From Candidatus Iainarchaeum sp. (GTDB taxonomy: Archaea; Iainarchaeota; Iainarchaeia; JAGGVJ01), in contig JAGGVJ010000040.1 of the NCBI GenBank assembly GCA_021158055.1, forward strand, positions 1 through 64,000: 64,000 bases of DNA, written 5' to 3'. A program made the position numbers and the translations under genes. Position 1 is the stretch's first letter. Each line of letters opens with the position of its first letter. Shown here one piece after another: positions 41,082 through 64,000 of the stretch. Below the pieces are notes generated by a model. The model was not told the DNA's origin and did not search any database. It saw only the letters and a program-made list of their open reading frames with translations.

Positions 41082-41414
41082 TCATCTTCCTCTTTGAGGG
41101 GGTTCGTCATCTTCCGGGGGTTCTTCCTTGTTTGAATCCAGTATTTTATTGGTTGTTTTACGGGCTCTTTTCCATGCCTTAACAGTTGTCGGAACAGGCT
41201 TGAAAGTTGATCTCGGGTACGGCTTTGAACCGGAATGCTCTTCTTCGTCTTCTTCAGCGTCGTCTGAATAGCTTTTCGGAGCTGATTTGATTTCGGACAA
41301 CACCACCAAAAACGCAATCAATGCAAGGACAAACCCGATTGCCTGGCCTGTTCTTTTGTCAAGGACAAAAAATATAACTGCAAGAAACAATAACAAAACC
41401 GGCAAGTACTTCAT
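41082..41414 (-). CDS. Small membrane protein, 110 residues
   Basis: Two hydrophobic segments near residues 4-20 and 26-42 (YLPVLLLFLAVIFFVL, IGFVLALIAFLVVL) followed by an acidic then proline/lysine-rich tail (EEDEEEHSG, PPEDDEPPQ). No recognised family. GGTGAAAAA precedes the ATG. It is the last gene of the minus-strand surface operon, 71 bp after the next membrane-protein gene, so it may be an accessory of that system. Confidence 0.7.
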   Translation of the reverse strand: MKYLPVLLLFLAVIFFVLDKRTGQAIGFVLALIAFLVVLSEIKSAPKSYSDDAEEDEEEHSGSKPYPRSTFKPVPTTVKAWKRARKTTNKILDSNKEEPPEDDEPPQRGR

Positions 41415-41485
41415 TTTTTCACCATTTGACCTTTAAATCCTGATTTCACCCTGACTTTTGAACATTACCTAGATTTGAATTTGGT

Positions 41486-41782
41486 TCAGTCGCCGCCAAG
41501 GCCAACCGCGTTCCTTATGCCTTCACCGAATATCGACAGGAAAATTATTGCCGCGACAAGCCACACAAGCGTCGGGTGCGTCCAGATGGTCAGGTAAACA
41601 AGCGCAAACCCGACTATCCAACCGACAAACCCAGGCAAGTGAGAACGGCCCCAGTTGATTATCCAGACTGAAAATATTATCAACAAAGCATACCAAATCT
41701 GTATGTCGCCGAAAATGTTGGTGTTGAACAACTGTGACATCGTGAAAAGCACAGGGCTTGTTGAAACATTCAAAAAATCCAT
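41486..41782 (-). CDS. Small membrane protein, 98 residues
   Basis: Three hydrophobic stretches (residues about 28-45, 49-67 and 70-90: IWYALLIIFSVWIINW, GFVGWIVGFALVYLTIW, LVWLVAAIIFLSIFG). No family recognised. ATG 41782 was chosen for AAGGT six bases upstream; a TTG seven codons earlier is possible. It lies in the surface operon between the lipoprotein and the 110-residue membrane protein. Confidence 0.72.
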   Translation of the reverse strand: MDFLNVSTSPVLFTMSQLFNTNIFGDIQIWYALLIIFSVWIINWGRSHLPGFVGWIVGFALVYLTIWTHPTLVWLVAAIIFLSIFGEGIRNAVGLGGD

Positions 41783-41846
41783 GTAAATACCTTCATTATC
41801 CAACTTATTATTACTTATGTTTCAAACCATTTATCTAATTTTAAAT

Positions 41847-42485
41847 TTATCGACAATAGCACATCCTGTCTCCAGTGTAATCGCAAGCAAACCTTGCCTG
41901 GTCTTCATTGAACACCTTTTTCTCTTGAGAGTCTTTAATCTCATCAAGTCTAGAGCCAAGTCTGGAGCCCGAGCCTGAAACTAAACAATAACCATTCCTT
42001 TTAATAATACCATGATCAAGGGAAACGCATGCGTCATCGCAACACCCAATCTTGTCATCCATACAGCTTGCAGGCAAATCGCGGATGTTTTTGTTGGTGC
42101 TTAAATCATTATTCCACTCATCGTCACAATAACTTACCAGGTTTTCAACAGTTATACTGCTTAATTCTTCAACAATATCACTATTATATATTATGGTGCA
42201 GGACTTAAAGCTTCCAAACTGCTCCAGTTTACTGGTATCTGTTTGTTTTTCCGGGGTGGCAATGATATCAAAAGAGCATTTTGGGGTACTATACGCTTCT
42301 ATATTTGTCAAACTGACATAATCAACAGCCAGCCTGACTTTTCCACACGAAACACTATCAATCAGTTCAGACTCAAATTCCAAGCCGGGGCACTCGTTCT
42401 TAAAATTGTCTTTTGTGCACCCGGAAAGAAGCACAATCCCAAACAAAAAAATTACCACAATCAAGTTTTTACATGCAACGCCCAT
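41847..42485 (-). CDS. Cysteine-rich lipoprotein, 212 residues
   Basis: The N-terminus has a hydrophobic signal ending in LLSGC, a lipobox whose cysteine (about residue 23) would be lipidated. The mature part is acidic and contains about a dozen further cysteines (for example CCDDACVSLDHG and DRMCYCR at the end), suggesting several disulfides. No recognised family. It starts 16 bp after the stop of the giant surface protein and is probably cotranscribed with it, so it may anchor or assist that protein. Confidence 0.78.
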   Translation of the reverse strand: MGVACKNLIVVIFLFGIVLLSGCTKDNFKNECPGLEFESELIDSVSCGKVRLAVDYVSLTNIEAYSTPKCSFDIIATPEKQTDTSKLEQFGSFKSCTIIYNSDIVEELSSITVENLVSYCDDEWNNDLSTNKNIRDLPASCMDDKIGCCDDACVSLDHGIIKRNGYCLVSGSGSRLGSRLDEIKDSQEKKVFNEDQARFACDYTGDRMCYCR

Positions 42486-42501
42486 ACAAAACCCTTACCA
42501 A

Positions 42502-45500
42502 TCATTTAGCAAATCCTCTTATGAACTCAACAATTATTTCATCCAATTCATCTTCACAGGCATCCAATTCCAGACCCTGCCCACTGTTTATAAAACATAT
42601 CTCCGGCGGTCTTTCATCACCATAATCCTTATCTTCGCACACCGGTCTTTCGTCTGAACCCATACTGAATATCAACCCCGTGATTATCAACTCACTGGTT
42701 GGACTCAAACTGTCATCTTTGTTTCTCCTGACTACTTTTACCGGCGTTACTGTATTTGTCTTTCCGATGTCTGACATTTGCTTCCCGTCAATACTAACGT
42801 CTCCTTCAAGTATTTTAAGATACTTTCTCTGAATGTTTTCTACAACTTCCTCTGAACTGCCTTTTACAACCACTGAAACTTTCTGGCCTGTTCCCGCGGG
42901 AGCAGAAGGATTCCAACTCATGATTGCAAAAATTCCGTCGTATTTATTGATAAGATTCACTACTCTTAAACACGCGCTTTTATAGGCATCATCTTCCTTT
43001 TCACAACGGTTTTCATCAAGATTTTCCCCTACATACCTTGCAAACAGATTAAATTGACTGTTACCGGAGGCACGCGACGGTGAAAGATTTCCTGCCAATC
43101 CCTCAATGCCCTCAATCCCAGCTGTGTTGGAGTATTCAACATCAAACATCTCCTCAAAAGGCAAGCTGTATGTTCCTTTCTGCACGCCGGAACCGTCACT
43201 AAGCGGCGCAAAAAACAACGGGAAATACTTCGGCAGGTTTATCACGCCGAAATTGCAGTTGTAAGTGGACTTGCTGTCAGCTTCCTTTCTGTCAACTTTT
43301 ACGATATAGCTGTTTTCACCATCCCTCGTGTAAATCCTTTTCCAGACACCGCAGGACATCTTTTTCGGACTAACCTCAAATTTGATTGACGTCGGGCCTG
43401 GACTGCTTATGTCACTTCCAACAACAAAAATTTCCTTGTCCCAGCTTAAAAGTTTAAGGCGCGCAGGAGAAATTCCCCCGAGTTTAAACGGGGATTCCCC
43501 CCGATCATCTCTGAACACACCCAATGCAAGAGACATAATCCCATTGTATTCCTCATCTGTAAAAGCAAATTTAAATTCATTCTCGTGAATATTAGCTCTT
43601 TTCAAATTTCCGCCATCCAACGGAGAACTGAAAAGGAAAAGATACAATTCGTTCAAAAGCTTGAAAGTTGTCTGGTCGCAGTAATGCGTGTTGCATTCCC
43701 TGAACAGTTTGGAAATGTCTTGCGCTGAAAACCCTGAAACTTCACTGCCGTCGTCGTCAACAATTATTTTGTTTCCGTTGAACATCGCAGCAACTTCGCT
43801 AAACCCCCTGCTGTCTTCTTTCACCTTGAAATTGCCGCCCGAGGTTTTCTCAACCGGCTGGTCTTCCAGTGCTTCTTCCCCGAAAATCGTGGCGAAAAGA
43901 GAGTCGTATTCAATAGTGCACTCTGTTCCGATTACGTTCACCCTGAAATCTGCAATCTTATTTTCAGGTTCGCTGAATCCTTCAAGAAGCTTTGTTTCAC
44001 CCCGACCGACAAAAGTTTCAGAAAGGTCATAACCGTAATTGGTTGTGCCGGAAGTCGTCGAACTCTCAAGGAAACGAACTCCCTGCTTTCCTTTGTTCTG
44101 CGCCTTCAGCCCTTCTTCGGAGTTGATGAAAATAAGTGTCGAGTTCAGGTCAGAGCAATTCAGATATTTCTTTTTAAAAACATGGCTGCACTCTGTAGCC
44201 GCTTCACTTTCTTCTTCTCTTTTCATGCTGTATTCTATGCTGAACTCTTCTTCACTTTCACCGAAACTGACAAAAAGAAGATCAGATTTCCCGGATTCAA
44301 TAATCACATCCTTGTCAGTCCCTGCGAAATTCGGATTTTTCGTTATTGTGACTTCTGCATCTGACTTGTTGTCAATAAACAGGCCGCCCAGCGAGTCGCT
44401 CAACTCAAACGATACCTTGTCGCACAGCTCGCTTCCGTAGACACAACCGTCGTCACGGTTAACGTTCACGGTTACTTTTTGTTTCGGGGCAGTTTCTTTT
44501 GATTCGCCGATGTAGATTGCAAGCACCCACTTGCCGTTGTCGTCAGTCAAATCGTCACTCACTTCCGCTTCCAGTTCAAACGTCTTTGCCTCGTCAATCA
44601 ACAGTTTGTGTTCCTCGCTGAACTCTTCAAGAACTCCTTCTTTTTCAGCTTCTTCGTCATCGCCGGTAACTATCTCAAGAATCGTTGCAGTGGCCAAACC
44701 CTTGTCTGATCCTTCCTCGTCTTCACCCGGCAAAAGCTTGAAATACAGGTCAATGGCGTCTTCTGAAATGTTTTTCAAATCAAACTTGATTGACTCTGTT
44801 TTTTTGTCCTGCATGCACATGTTGTCAAAAGAAATGCTTTCAATGGAGGTTTCAGTGTTTTGCTTGAGCACTTTCACGTAACTTTGCCCGCTTTGCGGTG
44901 AAATGCTCACTGAAACAGGCAAAGTGGCTTCAACAGGTTCGCCTGAACAGTCAACTGTAAGAACATACTGCCCTGAAACAGCCAGATTGCCTGTTATTGC
45001 CTTTTCTTTGTCTATTTCCGCCACAAGTTCAATGTCTGTAAGCGCGCTGCTTTTGTCAGTCCATTTTGAAAACGCTGTTTCAATGTCCCCTCCGGAGCTT
45101 TTGCTTCTAAGCAACACGTTCAGCTCAAAATCACCCGCGACAGTGTCGCCGCTTAAAACAATGAATTCCTGGCCTGAAAACGAACTGATGTTGCAGGAAC
45201 AAACAGTTTCTATTTTTATCCCCTGCAGTATTTTTGACCTGTTGCCGGAATCAAGCAAAAATTCTGCTTCCTGATCGCCTGAACCGTAAGATATCCTGAA
45301 GCAGTCGGAAGAACCGTGCGCAGTCACTTTGAACGGCAGGGTTGTAATATGCAGCTTGTTGTCGCTGTCTGATTTGCCTGCAACGAAAACATATCCTTCA
45401 AAGCTTGGATCACTTGCGGTTTCAACGCTCACCCACGCTTTCATCTTGAAATCAAGAGTGGAGCCGTTTTCAATTTCCCTTCCCAGAATAATGTTTTTGA

Positions 45501-48500
45501 AGTCAAGGTGAAAGTCGTCTGACTCGTTTCTTGAGACAATGTCAGCGACAGTAATCGTGATATTATTTGAGCCATTGTTTTTCAGTTTCAGGGTTTCTTC
45601 AATGGTTTCTGTTTTTTCAACAACGCCGAACTCAACAATTGAATCGCTTCCCTCTGAATCAGTTAACTTGAGGTCTGAGTCAAACTCTTCTGAAACATTT
45701 ATGTCAACGCCTGCCGGCCTGAACCTACCTGCGCTTACCCTGGCGTTGACTGTTCCTTCTTCAAGTGAAAAGAACTCTCCCTGTTCAGGGAAAATGTATT
45801 CACCGTCTTTTCCAGAGCCCTCTTCGTCGTCAAACCCTGTTTTTGAATAAGTCACGTCTTCCCCGAGAGGCACACCGGTTTTGTTTGAAAGAAGAACGGA
45901 TGCGCCAGTCACCGGAGTATCGCTTCCTGCTTCAGTTACAATCAGTTTTATCTGGTTTCTTCCTTCAAGAATCATTGTCGAAGGGCTCACGTCAACGTCA
46001 AGCAGTTTGTCCCCCGTGGAATCAAAGTAAACTGTAAACACGCCCCCCTCATCTTCTGCACCGTCTTTTGAAAACTCAAACTCTATTCCCACCCCGTCGC
46101 TGACAACTCTTGAAAACGCCTTTATTTCCCCTGCCAGCAAATCTGACTGGTAATCCTCAAGAAGCGTTGAAATCAAATCGCTTTCATCTTCAAAAGCAAT
46201 CCCCCCGATGTCATATGACTTGAACCTAACGCTTCCTGCCATGTCAGGCGAAACTTTTACTTTGTATCCGTCAAGATAACTCCCATTCTTTGAATAAGCG
46301 GAAAACTCAACCACAAAATCAGTTGAGGTGACTGTTGAAAACAATCCGCTCGGGAAATATTCTTCACTGTCCTCTTCCCTGAAAAGCGCTGAAAAACACA
46401 CATTTTCCCCACACAGTTCTTCCTGCGCAACCACAAGGAATTCTTCCTCGCGCAATGCAATGTCTTTTTCGTCAATGTTTCCCCTGAAACCAAAAACTGC
46501 CTTGTCTTCTTCTTCCGCATCGCTTTTTACGGCAAGCCACACCTCAATCTGGTAAACCATTGGCCCGCCTGAAGAACTCTCCGCCTTTGAAAGGGAGATC
46601 CATTTCCAGCCCCCTGAAGACAGCATTGAAGTAGTTTCAAACTCCTGTCCGCCCAAAACTTCAAGGTCAATTTTTGAAGAATAGCCGCTTACAACCCAGT
46701 TTGAATCTTCAAGGCCGAGCCCTTCACCGACCGAAAGCATAAACACAGAGTCGCCTTCCGCGTTCTTTGGAATAATAACATTGAAAACCGCGCGGTACGT
46801 TTCATCTACTGCAACCGCGTATTTTTGGTTTCCGCTTTGGTCAAATAGTCCTTCAAAATCTATTGATTCATCTGAACTTTCAGCATGCATTTTTGCGTTC
46901 ACGGTCGCCCCGCCCGAAACAACAAGAACGGGCCTTGACACAAAGTCAAGGTAATTGTCTTCTTCGACCATCACATAAACAACCATGCCCTGCGGAGCCA
47001 GCAACTCATACGCCCCTTCTTTGCCGCTTGTGTCTTTTGTTATTTCACTGTTTGTTTCCACGTCAAACAACGAAACTTCGGCGCTGTTCAATGCAGAGCC
47101 GTTTTTTGCTTTTTCAACATTTACAATGATTTTTTCAAGTTTTGAACTCAACAAAATATCAACATTTGTTGTTTTTCCTGCTTCAACTTCAACTCCGGAA
47201 ACCTGTCCGGATGAAGCCAGCGACTCTGCTTTTGCAGTTATTGCCGAACCTGCCGGGACATCCGGGAAAGAAACACAACCGTCTGTTTCGGTTTTTTTCA
47301 GGGGCATGCCAAGGAAATCTGTTCCGGTCCACAAGGTGACTGACGCCCCGTGAACAGCAGCAAAGTTTTTCTTCACGCAGACATTCAGGTTTGCCGAGTT
47401 TTGTGTAGTGGACTCTTCAAGTTCAATTGATACCGTTGAACCGGAAGAAACGCCTTTTTTGAGCTTTGGAAGATACCCGCTCTTGTAAGCTGAAACATTG
47501 TATGTCCCTGCTTTCTCAAGCAGGACAACTCTTCCGCTTGAAGCAGTTGTTTCAGACAAAAGGATTTCTGAACCAGTAAGCAAAGTGACAGCTGCTCCGG
47601 AAATGCCTCCAAAGTATTCTGTTTTCACTTCCACGATTATCTGGTTTTCGTCACCTGCTTTTTCCATGGTGATTTCTTTTCTTTCAACTGTTTGTCCTGA
47701 TTCGATTTCAAAATAATTTGTTCTTTCTGTGGAGTAAATTCCCTCCGGATCTGTTGCAACAACCTGTATTTCAACGTTTGCGGGTATTTCGCGAAGGCTT
47801 ACCGTTCCTCCCGCGTAAGTCGTGCCCTCTGAAATTTTCGTTGAGTCATACCTTTTGGCAGTTACGGTTATTCCGGCAAGCAAATCACCGGATTCGTTTT
47901 TAACTGTGACTGGAAGGGTAACTATTGAACTTTTCGGATCAGGCGCGCTTAGATTTTTTGCAAGGGTAACTGTAAACTGCTTGTTTTCTGATTCAGAGTC
48001 AACACTCACTTCTTCGCTGTAGTGGTTGTCTGAAGAAAACTCAAGAACATATCTTTTGCCTCTTTCAAACCCGCTGAAAGAAAACGCGCCGTCTGTGTAA
48101 AAAGTAGTTTTTATGTTCAGCTTGGCACCAGTATCTTCAACACCCAAAATCGTGACCTCGCCGTCCAGCACTTCATTGTCATCGTTTTTTATCAAAAATG
48201 ACGCTTCAAAACTCACTGTTTCTTTGGCAAGTGAAATCTCTGCAAGGGTTCCTGCTTCGTATGTGTTTTGCCCGATTTCAAATCCGTCTGTGTTGATAAC
48301 CAATTTGACTGATTTTTGCTCATACCCCTCTTTTTCAAGGTTTATCCTGAGCGGTTCTCCAAGCCGCGGGGACGCAATGTAAAACACCCCGTCCTCCTGC
48401 GTCTGCCCAAGGTCTTTCAAGCCGGTTTCAGGAAAATTGGCTGACACAAAAACCCCTTGGACAGGGTCAAGCGTTATTGAGTCAATGACTGTTACTTTGA

Positions 48501-48726
48501 ACACTAAAGGCGACATTGCCCCTGCTGCAAGGAAAGCGACTGTTCCGAGAAGCACAGTCAAAAGAATAAGGACAACCGGAAACGAGGGGACGTTTTTTGA
48601 CTCCATTGCATCAACAACAGAGTACACAGGAACTCCCTTGCCGTCCAGAAAATCAAGCACAGAATAGTACTTGTCCTCCATGGATGCATAGAAATCTGAA
48701 AGCGATTCCTTTAAGTTACTTGCCAC
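42502..48726 (-). CDS. Giant surface protein 1, about 2,075 residues
   Basis: An N-terminally anchored extracellular protein. About 50 cytoplasmic residues (SDFYASMEDKYYSVLDFLDG, VPVYSVVDAMESKNVPSFP) precede one transmembrane helix (residues about 52-75). Then follow many beta-sandwich modules of the carboxypeptidase-regulatory/SpaA type up to about residue 640 (VTVIDSITLDPVQGV, GYEQKSVKLVIN), and further Ig-like and unassigned modules. No C-terminal membrane segment or sorting signal (end FIRGFAK). Its N-terminal tail closely resembles giant protein 2. Start uncertain: GTG 48726 or an upstream TTG. Expected to project from the cell; function (adhesion, sheath or enzyme) not known. Confidence 0.8.
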   Translation of the reverse strand: MASNLKESLSDFYASMEDKYYSVLDFLDGKGVPVYSVVDAMESKNVPSFPVVLILLTVLLGTVAFLAAGAMSPLVFKVTVIDSITLDPVQGVFVSANFPETGLKDLGQTQEDGVFYIASPRLGEPLRINLEKEGYEQKSVKLVINTDGFEIGQNTYEAGTLAEISLAKETVSFEASFLIKNDDNEVLDGEVTILGVEDTGAKLNIKTTFYTDGAFSFSGFERGKRYVLEFSSDNHYSEEVSVDSESENKQFTVTLAKNLSAPDPKSSIVTLPVTVKNESGDLLAGITVTAKRYDSTKISEGTTYAGGTVSLREIPANVEIQVVATDPEGIYSTERTNYFEIESGQTVERKEITMEKAGDENQIIVEVKTEYFGGISGAAVTLLTGSEILLSETTASSGRVVLLEKAGTYNVSAYKSGYLPKLKKGVSSGSTVSIELEESTTQNSANLNVCVKKNFAAVHGASVTLWTGTDFLGMPLKKTETDGCVSFPDVPAGSAITAKAESLASSGQVSGVEVEAGKTTNVDILLSSKLEKIIVNVEKAKNGSALNSAEVSLFDVETNSEITKDTSGKEGAYELLAPQGMVVYVMVEEDNYLDFVSRPVLVVSGGATVNAKMHAESSDESIDFEGLFDQSGNQKYAVAVDETYRAVFNVIIPKNAEGDSVFMLSVGEGLGLEDSNWVVSGYSSKIDLEVLGGQEFETTSMLSSGGWKWISLSKAESSSGGPMVYQIEVWLAVKSDAEEEDKAVFGFRGNIDEKDIALREEEFLVVAQEELCGENVCFSALFREEDSEEYFPSGLFSTVTSTDFVVEFSAYSKNGSYLDGYKVKVSPDMAGSVRFKSYDIGGIAFEDESDLISTLLEDYQSDLLAGEIKAFSRVVSDGVGIEFEFSKDGAEDEGGVFTVYFDSTGDKLLDVDVSPSTMILEGRNQIKLIVTEAGSDTPVTGASVLLSNKTGVPLGEDVTYSKTGFDDEEGSGKDGEYIFPEQGEFFSLEEGTVNARVSAGRFRPAGVDINVSEEFDSDLKLTDSEGSDSIVEFGVVEKTETIEETLKLKNNGSNNITITVADIVSRNESDDFHLDFKNIILGREIENGSTLDFKMKAWVSVETASDPSFEGYVFVAGKSDSDNKLHITTLPFKVTAHGSSDCFRISYGSGDQEAEFLLDSGNRSKILQGIKIETVCSCNISSFSGQEFIVLSGDTVAGDFELNVLLRSKSSGGDIETAFSKWTDKSSALTDIELVAEIDKEKAITGNLAVSGQYVLTVDCSGEPVEATLPVSVSISPQSGQSYVKVLKQNTETSIESISFDNMCMQDKKTESIKFDLKNISEDAIDLYFKLLPGEDEEGSDKGLATATILEIVTGDDEEAEKEGVLEEFSEEHKLLIDEAKTFELEAEVSDDLTDDNGKWVLAIYIGESKETAPKQKVTVNVNRDDGCVYGSELCDKVSFELSDSLGGLFIDNKSDAEVTITKNPNFAGTDKDVIIESGKSDLLFVSFGESEEEFSIEYSMKREEESEAATECSHVFKKKYLNCSDLNSTLIFINSEEGLKAQNKGKQGVRFLESSTTSGTTNYGYDLSETFVGRGETKLLEGFSEPENKIADFRVNVIGTECTIEYDSLFATIFGEEALEDQPVEKTSGGNFKVKEDSRGFSEVAAMFNGNKIIVDDDGSEVSGFSAQDISKLFRECNTHYCDQTTFKLLNELYLFLFSSPLDGGNLKRANIHENEFKFAFTDEEYNGIMSLALGVFRDDRGESPFKLGGISPARLKLLSWDKEIFVVGSDISSPGPTSIKFEVSPKKMSCGVWKRIYTRDGENSYIVKVDRKEADSKSTYNCNFGVINLPKYFPLFFAPLSDGSGVQKGTYSLPFEEMFDVEYSNTAGIEGIEGLAGNLSPSRASGNSQFNLFARYVGENLDENRCEKEDDAYKSACLRVVNLINKYDGIFAIMSWNPSAPAGTGQKVSVVVKGSSEEVVENIQRKYLKILEGDVSIDGKQMSDIGKTNTVTPVKVVRRNKDDSLSPTSELIITGLIFSMGSDERPVCEDKDYGDERPPEICFINSGQGLELDACEDELDEIIVEFIRGFAK

Positions 48727-48876
48727 ACTCAAATAAACCAATCCTGATTTTTAATTTAATTCCACTGTCTCCAATCAACAACCGGTTCAAACAACCACCA
48801 GTCATGATAAACATTGCGGTTAAACCTTTAAAATAATTACCTTATTAAAAACATTTAGCAAAAGCGGTAAAAAAAA

Positions 48877-49308
48877 TCAAAGAAAAAACGGGACTGCCGC
48901 TGCAAGCGCTGACACCGCAAGCAAAGCAAACGCTATTTTGACCGGCTTGTTCGTGTTTGACTTTCCCCGCAGGTCTGCGTGGAGTTCAAGTCCGAGGTAC
49001 GCGCCTGCAAAAAGCGCGATGAAAACCGGAAAAAACGTTTGGGCTGCTGCCTGTGGGTTTTCCTGCATAAGTTTGCCGACTGCCTGTCCGAAAAAAAAAC
49101 TCGGCACAAAAGAAAAATAGCCGAAAAAAAGCATCGCTGACACAAAAGGCGCAACAGTTCCAAGCAAAACTGCGACAAGCAACTGGTCTGAAGTGATATT
49201 CAGGGGCACTTCAAAAAGCACCCCTTGTTCAAGCGCAAACCCAGCCAGAAGCCCGGCTGCAAAAAACGCAAGGGCAACCACCAAAAAAACCTGTTTCGGT
49301 TTCATCAT
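48877..49308 (-). CDS. Polytopic membrane protein, 143 residues
   Basis: Four hydrophobic segments (about 8-26, 43-66, 90-108, 124-142; for example VFLVVALAFFAAGLLAGF and AFALLAVSALAAAVPFF). No family recognised with confidence; SpoIIM-like small membrane proteins were considered but the sequence is not close enough. It is located between the two giant surface-protein genes with gaps of 64 and about 150 bp, which suggests a role in their export or anchoring. Confidence 0.7.
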   Translation of the reverse strand: MMKPKQVFLVVALAFFAAGLLAGFALEQGVLFEVPLNITSDQLLVAVLLGTVAPFVSAMLFFGYFSFVPSFFFGQAVGKLMQENPQAAAQTFFPVFIALFAGAYLGLELHADLRGKSNTNKPVKIAFALLAVSALAAAVPFFL

Positions 49309-55300: not shown

Positions 55301-57670
55301 ATTCATGCAGATTTCCTGCGTGCATTCAACCGTATTTTGCGTCACTGAAAATTCAACGGGTGTGGTGGCTGCGTAAAGCGGCTGTTTTCCTTCAGAGTCA
55401 ATCAAAGTTCCAAGTTCTTCGTCAAACGGGCTTCTTTCCATGCCGCCCAGGTTTATGTAAGTCCAGCCCCTGAAATTGAATTTCACTCTCTCGCCCAAAA
55501 CCACGTTGTCTTTCACCTGAACTGCAAAGTCCACAACATGCGTTCCTTTCCCGACATCTTTTCCAACCACCTGCACCCACTTGTTCATCTGTCCTGAAAG
55601 CGTGGTTCCTGCCATGTCAATATCCTGTCCAAGCGGGGGGTTGTGGGTCGTGCCTGAAGACGGTTCTCCCATCGCCTGCATCACTCCCGTGATTGCAACA
55701 TTGTCTTTTGCTGAAAAGTCGTTTTCTTCAAGGCCTGTCATCAAAAACAACCCTGCCTCGTCTGACGCGGCGGCCGTGTTCAACGCGACTCTTGCGCGGT
55801 ACTGCTTGCTTTCAACAACGCTTTCTACCCTGTTTCCGAACCTGTCGAACAAGCCGATGAAAACCGCGCCCGTGGAATCCGCGGGGCTGAAAAGCTGTAC
55901 ATCTATGCGGTTTTCTTTTGAAGAGTCAATGTTTATGACATGGGAAAAGTATTTTGCGCTGCCAGGCGATTCAACGACTGCGTAAGCCTGTATGCCTTCA
56001 ACAACGTCAAACTCGGCAACCCCATTTGAATCCGTGACAGTCGGCGACGAAAGCTCTTTGCCTAAAACCGTTGCCGCATTGTCAAATAAAATCACGCTTG
56101 CTCCTGAAACCGGGTTTTCTTCTTTTGTCACTTTGACCGTGACTTTTGTCTGCGTTGCGCTTATGTCAATCATTGGTTCCTGCGTGGTCGGAGTTTCCAC
56201 TGGTTTTGCCACTCCGACTTTGGAGCCGACGTATGCCTTTGCAATGACTGTCTTGTTGTTCGGAACGTCGCTGAACTCCGCGCAACCGCTTGAACCGGTC
56301 AATTCTGACGGGATTCCCAGCACTTTTGACGCAGTCTCAAAAAGAACAACCGGCACACCGTTTAACGGTGCCTTGGTGTCTTCTTCGCGGACACACACTC
56401 TAAGGGTTGATGTATTTTCCTTGGTTGACAGCTCCATTGAAGCCAAAACTGATTCCCCTGCCCCGACATCTGTCCTGACAAACGGGACATAGTTGCCTGA
56501 GTAGACAGAAACCATGTATTTTTTTGACTTGTCCACAAGAACTTTTCCTGTCCCGTCGATGTCCTGCGATTTCACGAGAACGCCGTCCAGATAAACGTTT
56601 ACGGCTGCTTCAAGGGGTGTTCCGGTCATGGTTCTTGCAGTGACGTTTATAAAGTCGCTGTTTGCAAAATCAGCTGTTGAAATAATCATTTCAAGTTTGT
56701 TTTCAGCGTTTGAAAGGACCTGAACGGCTTTTTCAGTCTGGCTCAAGTACTCTTCTTTTGACACCGTCACGTTGTAAAGTCCTGGTATCAGCCCTCTTAA
56801 AACTGTTTTTCCGTCAACGTCGGTCTTTTCAGAAGACGCGAGTTCTGCAACGCCTTTTGGGCGGGCTTCAACCTCCGCTCCTTCAACTGCATCGCCGTTT
56901 ATGTCTTCAATGTAAACCAGTAAATCTGCAGGTTCGCTTTCATCGGCTTCAAGGCTTATGGAGAGCTCCTGGTCTGAGTTGAACGTGAATGTTTCGCTTT
57001 TTTCCTGATAGCCCGGGGATGTGAAAACAAGGTCAATGTCTTGTCCCTGCGGAACTATCGCTTCAATTACCCCGTTTTCTTTTATGGTGTATGTTCCAAG
57101 GTCTTCTCCTTCTTTCATTACCTTGACTGTGCCTTCCCTTACAATGCTGTCAAAATCGGTTGTGACTCTCATCACTACTTTCACGTTTGTTTTTTCAAGT
57201 TTTGAAAGCGAAAAATCCTGCTGAAGCGAAGTGAAATAAAAGGATTTGTCAAGGGTTTCGTAGTCATACTTTGTTATCTCTACTGTGCCGTAACTATTGA
57301 GCTTGTCGAAATTTTCTATTGTTGCAATTCCTTTTGAATCGGTTTTTCCGATAAACGAGCTTAAGGTATCCGGGTAGGTTATCCTGACATCAGCCCCTTC
57401 AATGGCTGCTCCTGTTTCCGCATCAACGACTTTTACCTGAAGCGTTCCAGAGGCGGGGGTGCCAAGCATGAAAAACGCGACAAGCCCAATGAAAAAAATC
57501 GTCAAAAATAACGGGAAAACAGGTATGTTCTTGTCTTCAAGCGCGTCTATTACGCGGTAAACAGGGATTCCGTGGTCATCCACAAAATCCATCAAACCAA
57601 AAAACTTGTTTTCCACGCCGTAATAAAAGTCGTTCAAATTGTCTTTAACTGACTTGGATGCCAACTTCAT
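49373..57670 (-). CDS. Giant surface protein 2, 2,765 residues
   Basis: A paralogue of the 2,075-residue protein. It has a short cytoplasmic tail (NDFYYGVENKFFGLMDFVDD, IPVYRVIDALEDKNIPVFP), one transmembrane helix (about 51-71), and numerous extracellular beta modules (GTLQVKVVDAETGAAIEGAD; repeated carboxypeptidase-regulatory-like domains to about 640). At residues about 1690-1728 a tandem DSHYDY repeat is encoded by an 18-bp unit (52488-52595). Hydrophobic stretches near 2140-2190 and 2220-2245 are followed by a long coiled coil (about 2330-2730) and a last hydrophobic segment ending NCIVTFEEV. The coiled coil and late hydrophobic regions are absent from paralogue 1. GGGGGT precedes ATG 57670. 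Confidence 0.82.
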   Translation of the reverse strand: MKLASKSVKDNLNDFYYGVENKFFGLMDFVDDHGIPVYRVIDALEDKNIPVFPLFLTIFFIGLVAFFMLGTPASGTLQVKVVDAETGAAIEGADVRITYPDTLSSFIGKTDSKGIATIENFDKLNSYGTVEITKYDYETLDKSFYFTSLQQDFSLSKLEKTNVKVVMRVTTDFDSIVREGTVKVMKEGEDLGTYTIKENGVIEAIVPQGQDIDLVFTSPGYQEKSETFTFNSDQELSISLEADESEPADLLVYIEDINGDAVEGAEVEARPKGVAELASSEKTDVDGKTVLRGLIPGLYNVTVSKEEYLSQTEKAVQVLSNAENKLEMIISTADFANSDFINVTARTMTGTPLEAAVNVYLDGVLVKSQDIDGTGKVLVDKSKKYMVSVYSGNYVPFVRTDVGAGESVLASMELSTKENTSTLRVCVREEDTKAPLNGVPVVLFETASKVLGIPSELTGSSGCAEFSDVPNNKTVIAKAYVGSKVGVAKPVETPTTQEPMIDISATQTKVTVKVTKEENPVSGASVILFDNAATVLGKELSSPTVTDSNGVAEFDVVEGIQAYAVVESPGSAKYFSHVINIDSSKENRIDVQLFSPADSTGAVFIGLFDRFGNRVESVVESKQYRARVALNTAAASDEAGLFLMTGLEENDFSAKDNVAITGVMQAMGEPSSGTTHNPPLGQDIDMAGTTLSGQMNKWVQVVGKDVGKGTHVVDFAVQVKDNVVLGERVKFNFRGWTYINLGGMERSPFDEELGTLIDSEGKQPLYAATTPVEFSVTQNTVECTQEICMNYGFSRAITGEEIKDLTASEAYLSAVYSLGIEVQAKQDLEDLQVEILNSDASLDFVSYHYLGTQTQLDDEAHALAVNLESLGKNRGTGLEAVFVPTAENNSASVKIIVKRSGEVLIEKELFLKVVAGLGLSVFVEPEMAVAGEKTQFMITVLRAGDFEAVTDATIKLVNNIGKPLGNKTITITGKDKRNRGRNGVYATTIEPASGVIAVNVSADHFAEETILVRVGKEAAIAIDEDPFVIEIPLNIKTATKQLAIKNSSSKKLTDLQVVVERDEGFPDDDFSLELDDASITRLLGPGETTYLTFTSGYFPDSTDSASAEATIKIFAVKDNEYVTAQGRIKLLYAPKIDAQVIAECLEVTPSQTEFVVGSEDLDTAFNSMEVVLKNNCGIDLSNIVAYSSNDLDGGIFVLDCNGNQVIEGTGEEESTVIELLSADSLSGENKATVLVTFQADTLDDSENNAEDDDVVGTLVFRGENGSQDVSGELDYAVVFLDEAAALDVENKVKLKLKAGESLDILDGNAEKLVLKNRGSVTFKNIRISEKAEDWEINPNIYVNYLSETEASSTIDELEPEDTTHFEIEVDASGYSGEAGRMTGTLVIDADVYYKNKPGKVTSVSREVGLIVEIVPEEEGCLKVISSESIDFVSTTAYFDEIKSSVVIKNECGKRITRFVDFIPLNDFRLYIDFSEGSKRSLFDGETAQFDFRLKRVSKRAAIVSDSFQKGVFIAGETSSDTEILSELIMINVEIGSDLKTSDFTTEYLVHSCDPDIGITKTVSIPTKAGLSGDCSDGYCDGMQAAEYVIEKADRFMDKILTAFEGKKIRDIGCGSSKRNICTFEELLQSGLVPQDDWILNGVDLFLMDDRVTLEALKRAKTNVVSRYFNGQIVSGDYREMVNSGRISTGGDIYYDYDSHYDYDSHYDYDSHYGYDSHNDYDSHNDYDSEELLRKCGWYKVKFKPVFFARDGEIGSQFSIFVETSYVGETAACEGNALHMSTLLPWDNLSSEDAAEMKNTVFVIPKNEEDSFKGIVEEIASGLSGTELDYNLLEKDGRVKTSLDVVGGKNVVKLLFRDSANLTKEESELVDILNKDIGYPAYGVIHHDVSKFGSNIFELVIDKNALGDSSEDLNKSIGTAVSAFVEIASGAKPIGCYFGSQSTSKREGDRAKIDSFVITGLTEAPLNAKDAGRNECVFANGNWKIILPEFEGRVEVDKDGRTLIVKDAEALASLIACECTAALISFDTGTGIYGGYKIKYTGEDFTKDVFRDKIHNLRDKENEPAWATCVADVDEKFWGSTFSSDFWGESMLTDDCHSCRPEIRWSGLMTTEDGNEKVMKGDDGVKLRMNIEIKESPTINTCPAMNSACTIVTGVAVARGGAALMSWNPAGAGASAGLFVADQLVDFLVVDEILKVGFDHMAYKNKFKEAGEGFTDISTLTRSPYYTPMIAAGITAGPTAAGAICSYKKLGEEVVESSGKLKKVKGALAQPFRRLYPAIRQFKIQRAVASQVLEPDALDSSGKQLKLLVLGNKNYLDNYNIKKEIAESYKNAAGKWSKYADTLDEIARLEDDISKLDGKVAGLTKERDAILAGMKIDTAGMGDDLVYKAHLDALDTVNKEIDDSKKALKDVLDNLSKTKPAELDVKGLESAFKNANDTMNLNMEQVKGIEETITQNRAALNDLSPRLDDAGHLFKQNKQVLLEGIDEFMTAPGDTLDDMDRKFITDFRDMVNKGDDPAKLADAVSEIKGNSAFSNLTMGYDSALDNVLTSLSDFKKIEIDTSNLKKGIQTLEQGKTNLVKETGELNKLSGDIVKTMDASNKELTVRRELLKEVKDTQKMFSEFEAERVENLKKVNEQFENVWKLQGKIEGGALGKEKLLETQNELTARKGQLETDLRSLADEGVNFSDEGDDVTDALLKNTEKHSEFVAKSNEMTKGVEETEKKLESLKKVKRINPLGSAAIAGACWALDVYIAQHDNCIVTFEEV
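52488..52595. repeat. 18-bp in-frame tandem repeat, six copies
   Basis: Six copies of an 18-bp unit (consensus GAATCATAATCATAGTGT, plus strand) within giant protein 2, encoding the hexapeptide DSHYDY or DSHNDY on the minus strand. Two units differ at one base each, giving N for Y. Histidine/aspartate/tyrosine content suggests metal binding, but that is inference. Confidence 0.9.
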
Positions 57671-57842
57671 ACCCCCGATAACCTAAATAATCACATGCGG
57701 AATTAAACCGCATTAACTTTGTTGCAACAAAAATATAAGTTTTAATAATTGAAACACTTCAGCATATATATTCTTTTTTATATACTGTTATAATACAACA
57801 CATATCCGGACACAAAACCACCATGTCCACCATATACATTGT

Positions 57843-59648
57843 TTAACAACTTTCGCTTGCTGAGCCGGTGCACATGTCACACGACGATACTGACATGAAG
57901 TTGTCAACACACTGGAGATCAAGCCCTTCAACATAAGGCAACGTGCTCCTTGTTGCCCCCTTCCATTCTTCCTTGAGGTCTGCCCTTACACTGTCACTTA
58001 CACTGTTTTCCCTTGCCAGTGAAACGCAGAACACAAACGGGACAGAAATGCCCCCGTCATCGGATGTCGTTGAACTCATCGGGGCTTCCATCGGGTGATA
58101 AATAATCTGGTTTTCTTCCGGTTCAAAATGAGTTGTCCCGTAACCCCCCGGTATTCCAAACCCCTTATCCACAATGGTAAAACAGGCATAAGCAGCTTCC
58201 GGAACCTGCGCGCAAAGCGCCGGCTTCAGGTTTACCTGGTCTCCAAAAGGATTTGAAATAATGCCTGATTCAGGGTACTGCACATAAGAAGTGCTTCTTG
58301 AGCACCCGTCAAAAACACCTGCTCCGTTGTCAACAGTGTACCTGAAGTACTTTGTGGGGAAAACCACTTTTTCAAGGAAACCTAAAGAATGCCTGTTTTT
58401 ACTTGAATTCAGCCCTTCGCGAATAAAAAACTGCGCGCCTGAAAAAACACCATCAATTTTCCCCCTGTACTCAAGAGTGTCAAAATACAACGGCGCAAAT
58501 TCAATGTTGCCGGCACTTGACTTCAGTTCCGAATTATTGCCTGAAAGAACACCCCCTATTTTTTCTGAAACACTGTCCATGTAACTTTCGGCAGTTATCT
58601 CGCCTGAAGCATAAACATCGTCGTATTCTGAATCAAGGCATTTTCTTTCAAAATCCGTTTCAAAATACGGGGGGGTTTTGGGGTCATAGTGCACCCACAC
58701 CGGCAAAGAAACTTCCGAAGAATCCGAAACAGCCACTGAAATTTCTTTTGTGCAGTCAAGCCGTGATTTTTTTCCAAAATACTCTGCTTCACCATAAATT
58801 TTGCAATCCACAGGATAATCCGACCCCCTCGTCATGCAATCGCATCCCTGTGCGCCTGTTGATTCCAGGTCGCACAAGCCCCACGGTTTTATTTTACCAG
58901 GCCCCTCCAGATTCAGAATTTCGTCCTGGATCGCAAAGGCAATGTCTGCTGCTTTCATAAACCTTATCGGAACAGGGACAATCAGGCTTCCCTCCGGGAT
59001 CACAGAACTGACGCTTTCTTCCCCAGTGAGATTGTTTGTCATGACTATCCGCGCAATCTCATCGTTGCTTAAGTCGGCCGGGGGCTTTATTTCCACTGCA
59101 AACGAACCGTCTTTTGAACTGAAACAATCATCTGGAAAAACAAAAATATTATATCTTGTGAGGCTGCCGACCAATCCAATACTATAGTCCCCGATATTTA
59201 CAAGGTGTTCTGAATCAGTATCTTTAAACTCTCCAACCACGTCAAAAACGCTTGAAGTCATATTTGTCAATAAACTTGTCCTGACACCGGATTCAAAAAA
59301 ATCCTTCACGACCGTGCAAAAAGTGCCGCGGTCAGTTGAAACAAAAATGGCTTCTTCAAGGTCGTTGTTAAAATACTTCTTCAAAAACATATTGTGGGTC
59401 TGGGCCTTAAACTGAAAAATCACCGTGTGAATCGCATCCATCCTTGCAAAATCAAGAGTCGCCGACTCCTTCAGAGAAGACTGGTAGTCAACAATGACAC
59501 TGACCCTGTTTTTTTCAGTGTTTATTATGTTTACTATCATTACAAGAGCAATTACAAGAATCACCATCCCGACAAGCGGGGTAAACAATGTAAACCCTTT
59601 TTTCATCTTTTGCGACACTGACATACCAGGCAACCAGGTTTTTTTCAT
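57843..59648 (-). CDS. Pilin-like protein with a large ectodomain, 601 residues
   Basis: The N-terminus is that of a type IV pilin/archaellin precursor: KKGFTLFTPLVGMVILVIAL (about residues 16-35), a basic end, glycine and a 20-residue hydrophobic helix, with cleavage expected after the glycine. Position +5, usually glutamate, is threonine. Residues 40-600 form a large acidic ectodomain with many cysteines (for example GSDYPVDCKIYGE and CDMCTGSASESC at the end), no known family. The start is ATG 59648 with AAAGGTG upstream; the longer frame is an artefact. Flanked by the archaeosortase and giant protein 2 on the same strand. Confidence 0.72.
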   Translation of the reverse strand: MKKTWLPGMSVSQKMKKGFTLFTPLVGMVILVIALVMIVNIINTEKNRVSVIVDYQSSLKESATLDFARMDAIHTVIFQFKAQTHNMFLKKYFNNDLEEAIFVSTDRGTFCTVVKDFFESGVRTSLLTNMTSSVFDVVGEFKDTDSEHLVNIGDYSIGLVGSLTRYNIFVFPDDCFSSKDGSFAVEIKPPADLSNDEIARIVMTNNLTGEESVSSVIPEGSLIVPVPIRFMKAADIAFAIQDEILNLEGPGKIKPWGLCDLESTGAQGCDCMTRGSDYPVDCKIYGEAEYFGKKSRLDCTKEISVAVSDSSEVSLPVWVHYDPKTPPYFETDFERKCLDSEYDDVYASGEITAESYMDSVSEKIGGVLSGNNSELKSSAGNIEFAPLYFDTLEYRGKIDGVFSGAQFFIREGLNSSKNRHSLGFLEKVVFPTKYFRYTVDNGAGVFDGCSRSTSYVQYPESGIISNPFGDQVNLKPALCAQVPEAAYACFTIVDKGFGIPGGYGTTHFEPEENQIIYHPMEAPMSSTTSDDGGISVPFVFCVSLARENSVSDSVRADLKEEWKGATRSTLPYVEGLDLQCVDNFMSVSSCDMCTGSASESC

Positions 59649-59661
59649 TTTAACACCTTTA

Positions 59662-59703
59662 TCTTCAAAAACACTTTGTTTGTCTTCAAAAACACTTTGC
59701 TTG
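59662..59703. repeat. 21-bp tandem repeat, two copies
   Basis: Two copies of TCTTCAAAAACACTTTGTTTG (59662-59682 and 59683-59703, one base different) directly upstream of the pilin-like gene start, in the 73-bp gap to the archaeosortase gene. No other feature is visible there. Confidence 0.85.
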
Positions 59704-59721
59704 CACCTTACATAAATTGCT

Positions 59722-60324: not shown

Positions 60325-60336
60325 TTTTTTCACCTT

Positions 60337-62631
60337 ATGGGTGAAATGGATAAGGGCAAACATGTAATTAAAAGTGAGGGTGGCAAAAAAACCCTTGTAA
60401 TCGATTACAGGAACTCAAAAACCGGGGCAGACATCGCAGAATACGCCGACTGCATGGAACAAGTGCTCTCTCTTTTGAGAACAAACGACGCTGACTTAGT
60501 GGTTTTGGCTGACCTGTATGAAAGGGTCTACGACGAAAAGCAGACAAAAATGCTCAAAGAAATAGCTGACCTGGCAAATTTGTTTGAAACAGAAAACCTT
60601 TGGGGCTACACATATCTCGGAAACGTAAAAACAGAAAGCGAAGTGACTTTAAGCGAGAGGCACAACCTGGTGGTCAAAATTGCCCACGACCTGCTTTTGC
60701 GCGACCCGATAAAGGCATACCTGACTCTTCTTGACACCCTGAAAAAAGAAAAAATGAGAGCAAACGCAGGAGGAAAAACCTATCCCGTCGTGTTCCTGAA
60801 AACACTGGTGTTTGTCAAAAACAAGCTTGAGGCAACCAATCTTATTTCCGTCACAAAAAACCTGATTTTAAGGCTTCACAAAGTCCCGACGGGACGAGGT
60901 TTTTATCACTCGTTTTTTGACGCGCAGATAAAGCCGTCTTTTGTGGGTTCAAGGCTTCTTTTCAAAACCGACGAAAAAGTTGAACTGGTTGACCAGTACA
61001 ACGTTCTTGACGCGGAAGTGCGGGTCTACAGGCACCCTGAAAAAATCGCTTTAATGTATTACATCAACCCGCCCGAGTACTCGCTTTCGCCTGAAAAATA
61101 CTTCATCTTGACAAAAACAAAAGAAGTCGTTGCAAAATACAGGCCCACAAACACAGAATTTTCAGATGCTTCCCAGTCAAGGAAATACTTCGAGCACATT
61201 TACCAGGCAACCATAAACGACATTGCAAAAGAAAACAGCATTTCCATCTCACCGCGGGAAAAAGAAGCGCTTGCAAAAATAGTGGCGCGCTACACAATCG
61301 GCTACGGCGTGCTTGAACTCCTGTTGTCTGACAGGAAACTGACAGACGTTTACCTTGATGCGCCTCTCGGAACCAAACCTATTTATGTTGTTCACGGCGA
61401 ATACGGGCAGTGCCAGACAAACGTAATCTTCACAAACGAAGAAGCCCGCTCAACAGTATCCCGGCTCAGGGCGCTTTCAGGCAGGCCTTTTGACGAAGCC
61501 CACCCTGTCATGGACTTTAACCTATCCTCGCTCCAGACAAGGGTCGCAGTCATCGGCCAGCCCCTCAGCCCGCACGGCATAGCGTTTGCGTTGAGGCTTC
61601 ACAAGACCACTCCCTGGACTTTGCCCCAGTTCATTGACGCGCACATGATTGACCACCACACAGCAGGCCTTTTGAGCTTTCTCGTGGACTCAAAGGCATC
61701 CATGCTCATAACCGGCTCAAGGGGTTCGGGAAAAAGCTCCATGCTTACCGCGCTCATGCTTGAGATCCTTCAAAACCTGAGAATCATCGTCCAGGAAGAC
61801 ACCCTTGAAATTCCCGCGCCGTACCTCAAAAGCATCGGCTACAACATCCAGCAGCTCAAAACCCAGAGTGCGATTTCCGTGGGAAGAACCGAAAACGAAG
61901 TAAGCCCTGACGAGGCATTGAGAACAGCGCTTCGTCTGGGTGACTCTGTCCTGATCGTGGGTGAAGTGAGATCAAAAGAAGCAAGAGTGCTTTACGAGGC
62001 AATGCGTATCGGCGCGGTGGGAAACGTTGTCATGGGGACCATTCACGGCGAAAGCGCTTATTCCGTGTGGGACAGGATTGTAAACGACCTTGAAGTGCCG
62101 AACACTTCCTTCAAGGCAACCGACATGGTCCTTGTCCAGGCCCCTGTTAGATTCAAGGGCTCGCTCAAACGGCACAGGAGAGTAATCCAGCTGACTGAAG
62201 TGAAAAAGCACTGGCAAAACGACCCTGCCGCAGAAGAGGGGCTTCTTGACCTGCTCTCTTTTGACGCTTCAAAAGACGGGTGGGACCTGTTAAAGGACAA
62301 CTTCAAGGACTCCGAGTACTTCCCGAAACTCAAGCGCACAACCGGCATGAGCATTGAGGAAATATGGAAGGACATAAAACTGCGCGGAGAATCAAAAAAA
62401 TACCTTGTCGACTCAAAAAACAAATTTGAAATCCCTGCTCTTCTGGAAGCCGAAAACACTGTTCCGATGAACAACAAATTACTGCTGATGGCTGAAGAAA
62501 TGCGCAAATCCGGCGGAGGCATGGACTACGACAAGCTTCTTGAATCATGGAAAAAATGGGTTGACAACCGGTATGTGAAAGAAATAATTGCAAAAAAAAG
62601 GCTTGTTTCAACACGTAAAATCAAAAGGTGA
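60337..62631 (+). CDS. Type II/IV secretion-system ATPase (TadA/GspE-like)
   Basis: A 764-residue ATPase of the VirB11/TadA/GspE/FlaI superfamily that powers pilus assembly or secretion. N-terminal 350 residues are a long extra domain typical of archaeal members. The Walker A motif is GSRGSGKSS (about residues 460-468), the Asp box is RIIVQEDTLEIPAP, Walker B is VLIVGEVRS and the His box GTIHGESAYS. The GTG start gene for a membrane platform protein follows five bases after the stop. Starts at ATG 60337 or 60346 (the latter has GGTGA just upstream). It is divergent from the archaeosortase, sharing a 12-bp intergenic space. Confidence 0.92.
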   Translation: MGEMDKGKHVIKSEGGKKTLVIDYRNSKTGADIAEYADCMEQVLSLLRTNDADLVVLADLYERVYDEKQTKMLKEIADLANLFETENLWGYTYLGNVKTESEVTLSERHNLVVKIAHDLLLRDPIKAYLTLLDTLKKEKMRANAGGKTYPVVFLKTLVFVKNKLEATNLISVTKNLILRLHKVPTGRGFYHSFFDAQIKPSFVGSRLLFKTDEKVELVDQYNVLDAEVRVYRHPEKIALMYYINPPEYSLSPEKYFILTKTKEVVAKYRPTNTEFSDASQSRKYFEHIYQATINDIAKENSISISPREKEALAKIVARYTIGYGVLELLLSDRKLTDVYLDAPLGTKPIYVVHGEYGQCQTNVIFTNEEARSTVSRLRALSGRPFDEAHPVMDFNLSSLQTRVAVIGQPLSPHGIAFALRLHKTTPWTLPQFIDAHMIDHHTAGLLSFLVDSKASMLITGSRGSGKSSMLTALMLEILQNLRIIVQEDTLEIPAPYLKSIGYNIQQLKTQSAISVGRTENEVSPDEALRTALRLGDSVLIVGEVRSKEARVLYEAMRIGAVGNVVMGTIHGESAYSVWDRIVNDLEVPNTSFKATDMVLVQAPVRFKGSLKRHRRVIQLTEVKKHWQNDPAAEEGLLDLLSFDASKDGWDLLKDNFKDSEYFPKLKRTTGMSIEEIWKDIKLRGESKKYLVDSKNKFEIPALLEAENTVPMNNKLLLMAEEMRKSGGGMDYDKLLESWKKWVDNRYVKEIIAKKRLVSTRKIKR

Positions 62632-62635
62632 AAAA

Positions 62636-64000
62636 GTGCGCGAAAGAAAAAAACAAAACCAGGCAAACAGAAAAACCCGCGACACCGAAAACATTGATGT
62701 CAAGCTCCCGGGATCACTGATTTACGGGGAGCGCGAAACAGATCCGGTCACAAAAACCGCTGATTCAAAAAAACCAGGAAAAAGCGGTTTTGTGAAATTC
62801 TGCAAGTGGAGCTACAGGCGCATAAAATCAAAAAACTCCAAATTTGACGAAAAATACAGGCAGGCAATTGACTTTCTCGGCTGGAACCTCACTGCAGACG
62901 AGTTTGCTTCAGGACAGAAAATGTCTATGGTCCTTGGTTTTGCATTGTCTGCAGTGATTGGACTGTGCGCATCCTACTTTGGCCTGATTTCATTATCAGG
63001 CGGCATTTCAATGGACAATCTTCCATTCCTTGGCATGCTTGCGGTGATTCCGATGGCCGCTTCGGCGATGGTTGTCAAAATGCCTTTAAACGCTGCCGAA
63101 ACAGAAAAAATGAACTCCATGACTTACGTTCCTGAAATCGTAAATTACCTTGTCATGAGCATGAAGCTGTCGCCAAACCTTGAAAAGGCAATCCAGTTTG
63201 CTGCAGAGCACGGGCGGGGAAAGATCGCCGACGATTTCAAAAAGCTGTTGTGGGACGTTGACATCGGAGTATACAACACTGTTGAGGAAGGCCTTGACGA
63301 CCTCGCGTACAAATGGGGGGACTACAGTTCTGTCCTGAAACACGCCTTGATGCAGATTCGCGCTTCAGTGATTGAGGCAAACGATGCAAGGCGCCTTGCG
63401 TTGCTTGACAAGGCGGTAGCCGATGTCATTGAAGGAATCAAGGCGGAAATGAGCACTTACTCGCGAAAACTGCACGCGCCCGCGATTTACCTTTATTACC
63501 TCGGGGTCCTCCTGCCGCTTATGCTTGTGATCATCCTGCCTATCGGCTCCGTGTTTACCGGGGCAGGCCTTGCTGACAGGAACCTCTTGTTTGTGCTCTA
63601 CAACATAATCATACCGACAGCCACTTTCCTTTTTGCAAGAAACCTCCTCAAAAAAAGACCCCCGACTTACACCCCGCCGGTCATCCCCGATGACTTTCCG
63701 GGAATCCCCCCAAAACACAAGTTGTTTTACGGGAAAAACAAAAAAACATTCCCTGTCCTGGCACTTGCAATAATTGCTGCTTTGGCTGTTCTCCTGTTTT
63801 CATTCATGGCAAACAACACAATTACTCAGCTTAGCTTTTCAGGCACCGACTTTGGCATCGACCCTTTTCACATGGTCACGCTTGAAGAGGCAAAAAACAA
63901 CATCTGGGGAACTTTCAACGACACCGGGTTTGAATGGGGCGGAATAAAATATGTCACTCCGATCTGGATGATCTACGGAGTTCTTTTATCGGTTGTTTCC
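62636..64000 (+). CDS. TadC/FlaJ-type membrane platform protein, 3' end outside the window
   Basis: The gene is open to the last base, so 455 residues are visible. It starts at GTG 62636, five bases after the ATPase stop, with AAAGGTG upstream. Basic N-terminus (residues 1-90), then a T2SSF/TadC core: hydrophobic segments near 105-125 and 130-150, a cytoplasmic helical domain (MTYVPEIVNYLVMSMKLSPN, EKAIQFAAEHGRGK), and more segments near 285-320 and 370-390. It would anchor and transmit force from the neighbouring ATPase during pilus or secretion-fibre assembly. The C-terminal half is not seen, so fusion with another domain cannot be excluded. Confidence 0.9.
   Translation, partial: MRERKKQNQANRKTRDTENIDVKLPGSLIYGERETDPVTKTADSKKPGKSGFVKFCKWSYRRIKSKNSKFDEKYRQAIDFLGWNLTADEFASGQKMSMVLGFALSAVIGLCASYFGLISLSGGISMDNLPFLGMLAVIPMAASAMVVKMPLNAAETEKMNSMTYVPEIVNYLVMSMKLSPNLEKAIQFAAEHGRGKIADDFKKLLWDVDIGVYNTVEEGLDDLAYKWGDYSSVLKHALMQIRASVIEANDARRLALLDKAVADVIEGIKAEMSTYSRKLHAPAIYLYYLGVLLPLMLVIILPIGSVFTGAGLADRNLLFVLYNIIIPTATFLFARNLLKKRPPTYTPPVIPDDFPGIPPKHKLFYGKNKKTFPVLALAIIAALAVLLFSFMANNTITQLSFSGTDFGIDPFHMVTLEEAKNNIWGTFNDTGFEWGGIKYVTPIWMIYGVLLSVVS

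Follow-up and report, generated by a model that had tools for sequence, protein, structure and literature searches.

The window analysed here is a stretch of 64,000 bases, the first part of a 100,473-base contig from the genome of a member of the Diapherotrites (1.15 Mb, about 95% complete by estimate). These archaea are uncultured. As the locus is cut by the window end, the remainder of the contig was also analysed: the TadC gene runs on beyond position 64,000 and is followed by about seven pilin genes and, later, by the gene of a 1,451-residue secreted protein. The whole gene cluster spans about 35 kb and is kept almost throughout the Diapherotrites. Its genes and their immediate neighbours are listed below, with contig positions continuing those of the window.

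41082..42485, minus strand: three co-directional genes for small exported or membrane proteins of 110, 105 and 212 aa, the last a putative lipoprotein
42502..48741, minus strand: giant surface protein 1, 2,079 aa, paralogue of giant 2 (CarboxypepD_reg, 3.8e-22)
48877..49308, minus strand: 143-aa membrane protein with four transmembrane (TM) segments, between the giants
49373..57670, minus strand: giant surface protein 2, 2,765 aa (CarboxypepD_reg, 5e-19; Big_1/SpaA-like matches)
57843..59654, minus strand: large pilin-like protein, about 603 aa, with a prepilin-type signal (KKG/FTLFTPLVG) and a long N-terminal helix
59722..60363 (alternative GTG start 60333), minus strand: archaeosortase, 213 aa (TIGR04178, 33.8 bits against a cut-off of 23)
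60337..62631 (alternative start 60346), plus strand: TadA/CpaF/FlaI-type secretion ATPase, 764 aa (PF00437, T2SSE, 2.5e-19)
62588..64000, on to contig position 64843, plus strand: TadC-like membrane platform, a single chain of 751 aa with two T2SSF-like halves
Contig 64840-68803, beyond the window, plus strand: seven pilin-like genes, mostly with class III signals
Contig 68852-70414, beyond the window, strand opposite to the pilins: zinc-ribbon membrane protein
Contig 70919-75274, beyond the window, at the far end of the locus: secreted protein, 1,451 aa, with an N-terminal signal peptide and a C-terminal tripartite tail
Contig 85490-86233 (L010:5490-6233), beyond the window: prepilin peptidase (Peptidase_A24, 2.6e-10; Arc_PepC_II, 4.1e-16)

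All genes that an earlier, sequence-only reading had described between 41 and 64 kb are present. Its picture of an almost entirely membrane-bound or exported set was borne out, every listed protein from this interval except the ATPase having a predicted membrane segment or export signal. The 12-bp gap that it placed between the archaeosortase and ATPase genes depends on the starts that are chosen. The gap exists with GTG at 60333 and ATG at 60346, whereas the genes overlap by 27 bp with the first ATGs. In relatives, the interval ranges from -15 to 3,639 bp and frequently contains further genes, so the close packing is not general. A promoter and terminator scan gave nothing above shuffled sequences; it models bacterial promoters. 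The ATPase, TadC and pilin genes of the plus strand overlap or stand at most 175 bp apart, as in an operon, with the TadC gene overlapping that of the ATPase by 44 bp.

At 41082-42485, the products of the three small genes match no Pfam family over its cut-off. No homologue was found in the relatives' loci that were examined, and these genes probably lie outside the conserved system. Just beyond the locus, at 38334-39878 of the window, a gene encodes a cytosolic protein of 514 aa whose sole match, to HerA-like DUF87, is weak.

Motor, giants and large pilin

The N-terminal region of the ATPase, of about 290 residues, is family-specific. Its nearest solved structures by profile match (afGspE 2oap, CpaF and FlaI) cover residues ~293-699 only. 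Orthologues across the Diapherotrites are 48-59% identical. The TadC-like protein matches T2SSF weakly (E = 0.025, 15 bits against a cut-off of 25.2); its size, its pattern of nine predicted TM segments and its position beside the ATPase fit a TadC platform, and its orthologues directly follow the ATPase in most relatives. In most of the pilin-like proteins encoded downstream, a hydrophobic stretch comes directly after KGQ or KGF, and these signals are kept gene by gene among relatives. These pilins are several distinct single-copy genes, not one repeated major pilin.

The genome carries seven T2SSE-type ATPases above the family cut-off. Farther along, the contig encodes two more ATPase/TadC sets and the prepilin peptidase. 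The second motor, which adjoins the first in many Diapherotrites families, has an ATPase (contig C36:78585-80399, L009/L010, beyond the window) with an N-terminal 4Fe-4S ferredoxin-like domain (Fer4_6, 4.3e-9); its homologue in genome G010 matches Fer4_11 (2e-11). The pilus ATPase of genome G018 (L059:15312-19172) contains an intein (PF14890, 1e-22; LAGLIDADG_3, 2.7e-17) that splits a QED/TLE motif. Split matches occur at the same point (residues ~467-507) in the pilus ATPases of G023, G046, G055, G082 and G084, and at residue ~546 in that of G049; these positions suggest at least two intein insertion sites among the relatives.

Giants 1 and 2 are 28% identical over residues 6-644 and share an N-terminal motif, a TM segment and beta-sandwich repeats. 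In giant 2, the conserved, cytosolic N-terminal motif precedes a TM helix (residues ~50-67) and a chain of beta-sandwich domains. Paralogues are found in nearly all relatives, with the motif FY..xEDKYYxxLDxLDxxGIPVYxxxDxIExxxIPSFP followed by a membrane helix; the part beyond it opens with CarboxypepD_reg and further beta-sandwich domains. An AF2 model of residues 1-1190 of giant 2 (pLDDT 76.7) consists of helices within residues 5-67 and almost entirely of beta structure thereafter. Foldseek searches returned generic multi-Ig proteins only, with TM-scores of ~0.1. For the C-terminal halves of the giants no homologue was detected, even among relatives, and neither a hydrophobic or TM segment nor a tripartite signal was found at their C-termini. 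Between families, the N-terminal regions are ~20% identical and the giants ~20-28%. This fast change would suit contact with variable partners or surfaces.

Two other identities of the giants were considered. A kinship with thioester alpha-2-macroglobulins, raised by bMG3 and the top Foldseek matches, was rejected, as no giant contains GCxEQ and the TM-scores are ~0.1. The SPEARE proteins were also rejected, as Pfam shows only beta-sandwich families and none of the SPEARE domains. The 143-aa four-TM protein encoded between the giants belongs to no Pfam family; proteins at the same position in genomes G005 and G041 are 35 and 28% identical to it.

The large pilin was taken as a protein of ~603 aa, the 690-aa ORF being an upstream over-extension. 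Its prepilin-type signal is kept in relatives, where the gene lies between or beside those of the giants. The AF2 model has a mean pLDDT of 39.6, with a helix spanning residues 13-94 (pLDDT ~77-92 at residues 21-50), and is unreliable elsewhere.

Conservation across the Diapherotrites

Nearly every named relative with this ATPase bears the label Diapherotrites; the few exceptions look like mis-assigned bins. With paralogues counted, the ATPase family was present in 55/55 genomes of the class. Of the phylum's 87 genomes, 69 have close orthologues (E up to 1e-60); of the 25 with a completeness of 90% or more, 24 do. Single-sequence searches of the 55 class genomes recovered the TadC-like protein in 51, the giants in 50 and the large pilin in 38.

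Gene calling in relatives from 15 further families gave the same arrangement: one or more giants, the large pilin, a giant and the archaeosortase on the minus strand, and the ATPase, TadC and pilins on the plus strand. On contigs that are long enough, the pilins are followed by the zinc-ribbon protein, the homologue of the 1,451-aa protein, a PAC2 protein and the second TadC/ATPase pair. The order also holds in family f2. Among 51 independent named ATPase contigs, an archaeosortase gene was near in 42, divergently upstream in 38 of them (median gap 760 bp) and downstream on the same strand in the other 4. Six of the nine contigs without it have less than 3 kb of upstream sequence.

As almost all families of the phylum share this order, the clustering is real and not due to chance. 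The linkage on which the sequence-only reading relied is thus upheld by the relatives, which have one conserved locus, with family f7 as the sole clear exception. In G009, a one-contig genome of that family, four separate places are occupied by the archaeosortase; the giants with the large pilin; TadC with the pilins and the 1,451-aa protein; and the ATPase. A large locus kept across nearly all families in such small genomes must matter to the Diapherotrites.

The archaeosortase and its probable client

The archaeosortase model TIGR04178 is matched by all 21 relatives' archaeosortases in the alignment, and the catalytic triad (Cys103, Arg145 and His165) is invariant in 30/30. The window enzyme falls in no named subfamily (ArtA-ArtH, Xrt types or pacearchaeosortase), with matches far below the cut-offs: 20.2 of 125 bits for ArtD, 20.1 of 86 for XrtH and 17.2 of 150 for ArtB. 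No solved structural relative was found. In one relative (L111:3-917), the archaeosortase and the large pilin are encoded by a single uninterrupted ORF, a lone case that may reflect gene fusion, loss of a stop codon or an error.

The tail of the 1,451-aa protein comprises [L/I]PxxP, usually LPSLPE, then a helix and a basic end, in 39/39 genomes outside family f2. A profile of this tail retrieved exactly one protein per genome in 12/12 genomes, with best E-values of 3e-13 to 5e-23 and the next best at 0.035. As the profile included the 12 targets or close versions of them, the informative part of this result is that no second client was found. The 1,451-aa protein matched no Pfam family over its cut-off and no solved structure. 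Its gene lies in the archaeosortase locus in G000, G003, G005, G007, G012, G016, G018, G032, G041 and, within family f2, G010; it lies away from it in G026 (~120 kb distant) and G009. The most probable client of the archaeosortase, and the only one predicted, is this 1,451-aa protein, not the giants.

Family f2 departs from this pattern. Its archaeosortase is short (~140 aa) and divergent, is encoded between a giant and the ATPase, and keeps the Cys, Arg and His residues. The client motif has lost its second proline (LPxxP in 0/9) and most of the basic tail. A joint loss of enzyme and motif was considered and rejected, as a profile search found the short divergent enzyme that a single-sequence search had missed. 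Divergence of both enzyme and signal would be consistent with a pair, and is one event in one lineage.

The genome has two more archaeosortase-like genes, on contigs C31 and C38. That on C31 (G000:C31:20566-21288, L178) stands beside SecD/SecF-like genes and a CarS-like gene of archaeal lipid synthesis, as do its counterparts in G003 and G005, and this type of second archaeosortase occurs in most genomes of the class. The setting fits a putative housekeeping role in lipid anchoring. The third, exosortase-like protein (G000:C38:20756-21529, L179; EpsH, 25.6 bits against 25.7) is encoded next to another cluster of pilin, ATPase and TadC genes, and the genome may thus contain a further sortase-pilus pair. 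The shared location makes the locus enzyme the candidate partner of the client, which the C31 or C38 archaeosortase could also process.

Interpretation and relation to known systems

On balance, we lean towards a phylum-wide, type IV pilus-like surface-assembly locus with a built-in archaeosortase, giant partners and one client, serving attachment. The prepilin peptidase would trim the pilins with class III signals, and the ATPase and the two-lobed TadC would assemble them into a filament or a short pseudopilus. The giants would be exported by Sec and stay attached through their own N-terminal helix, with their Ig-like domains reaching outwards as long chains. They may be connected to the filament by the large pilin, a natural candidate for such a linker because of its pilin-type signal and its position between or beside the giants. 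The archaeosortase would cut the C-terminal LPxxP(E) signal of the client, not the giants, and the C-terminal helix would be replaced by a lipid anchor, by analogy with ArtA. The organelle as a whole would probably serve attachment to surfaces or partner cells.

The sequence-only reading proposed that the motor and archaeosortase may build and anchor a fibre made of the giants, and named as refuting it a motor that belongs to an ordinary archaeal pilus with its own pilins elsewhere. This applies in part: the motor has about seven pilins with class III signals encoded immediately downstream, so the giants need not be fibre subunits; the linkage of the locus nonetheless holds. The anchoring of the giants by the archaeosortase is not supported. 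The giants are anchored at their N-terminus and it is the 1,451-aa protein that has the C-terminal tripartite signal. That the enzyme acts on the giants all the same is very unlikely: its gene is the first of their operon and often directly precedes a giant, but each giant has its own anchor, lacks a C-terminal hydrophobic segment or sorting signal, and is passed over by the sorting-signal profile, which matches only the 1,451-aa family. The giants are presumed to associate physically with the filament and to be adhesive. Family f7, in which giants and large pilin form one module and TadC, pilins and client another, counts against the link to the filament. A stronger version, in which the organelle is sortase-dependent and universal in the phylum, the one-client archaeosortase obligatory for its assembly or anchoring, and a pilin-like protein the adaptor to the giants, is possible but doubtful.

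Adhesion is the likeliest role, with envelope building and DNA uptake as serious rivals. In the former, an envelope or S-layer biogenesis that we hold to be rather unlikely, the giants and the client would be building blocks of the wall, and the motor would work as a short pseudopilus of the type II secretion kind instead of a pilus. The near-universal presence of the locus speaks for it, as do the several distinct single-copy pilins without a repeated major one and, from the literature, the anchoring of haloarchaeal S-layers by an archaeosortase. The giants, however, at ~20-28% identity between families against 48-59% for the ATPase, change faster than would be expected for a lattice protein, and archaeal type IV pilus loci with accessory surface proteins are common (PMC4858521). 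A competence pilus is unlikely. Its filament would pull in DNA, with the sortase-processed protein as a surface uptake factor. The type IV-like Epd pilus and ArtE are both essential for natural transformation of Methanococcus maripaludis (PMC10133366). No other functional precedent was found for a link between an archaeosortase and a pilus. The ATPase is of the Tad/CpaF type. Against this role, no DNA-binding, ComEC-like or nuclease gene was identified among the conserved genes of the locus, the window archaeosortase does not match the ArtE model, and giant Ig-like proteins are better suited to adhesion. Highly improbable is an ordinary archaeal pilus locus that has unrelated surface-protein genes and an archaeosortase as chance neighbours. 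The motor's own pilins and the separate blocks in G009 would agree with it; the archaeosortase near the ATPase in 42/51 independent contigs, the giants and large pilin alongside in 15 families with proteins only ~20-30% identical, and the pilin-signal protein between the giants do not.

The surface-attachment system that we favour was compared with described ones. None of the same composition was found in the open-licence literature, where absence is no proof of novelty. Archaeal pili with added S-layer proteins and adhesins have been surveyed (Makarova, Koonin and Albers 2016, PMC4858521), and divergent pilus islands in DPANN genomes have been described, without a sortase (Makarova et al. 2019, PMC6393860). 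The word 'sortase' is absent from the main texts of both papers, and 'DPANN' from that of the former. Like the Diapherotrites locus, with its TadC-like protein, archaeal type IV pili have a secretion ATPase, a TadC platform, class III signal pilins, a prepilin peptidase and accessory surface proteins. The Diapherotrites locus differs from them in its conserved archaeosortase, giant N-anchored Ig-like paralogues and one-client sorting protein, in its TadC-like protein, a single two-lobed chain, and in the long, family-specific N-terminus of its ATPase.

ArtA serves several substrates, the S-layer protein included. In the Diapherotrites, on the other hand, each genome has a single predicted client, with an LPxxP(E) motif; the window protein does not match the ArtA-specific model. 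The haloarchaeal ArtA/PGF-CTERM system (PMC7157517) resembles the locus in its membrane Cys/Arg/His enzyme and in the C-terminal signal of short motif, TM segment and basic tail. Single-target sorting pairs that are encoded together are a known pattern (Haft 2011, PMC3237569). Rhombosortase and GlyGly-CTERM (PMC3237569) are likewise one sorting enzyme and one target encoded nearby, but the enzyme is of another class, and the Diapherotrites pair brackets a pilus operon. The SPEARE giants of the Nanohaloarchaeota (PMC6642349) are also very long, membrane-anchored, adhesion-like DPANN proteins; their domains include those of serine proteases, laminin-G and type III restriction enzymes, and most have a C-terminal TM segment. 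None of these features was found in the giants of the present locus.

The best precedent for tying an archaeosortase to a pilus is ArtE/Epd of M. maripaludis (PMC10133366), in which an archaeosortase and a type IV-like pilus are required for the same process, transformation. The passages on this system report no giant protein, and by its gene number ArtE (MMJJ_17200) is distant from the epd genes; the window archaeosortase leaves the ArtE model unmatched. After ArtE of Methanococcus, the Diapherotrites locus is a second case of an archaeosortase tied to a pilus-like machine, and it provides a simple setting for archaeosortase biology, with one enzyme, one predicted client and a named motif.
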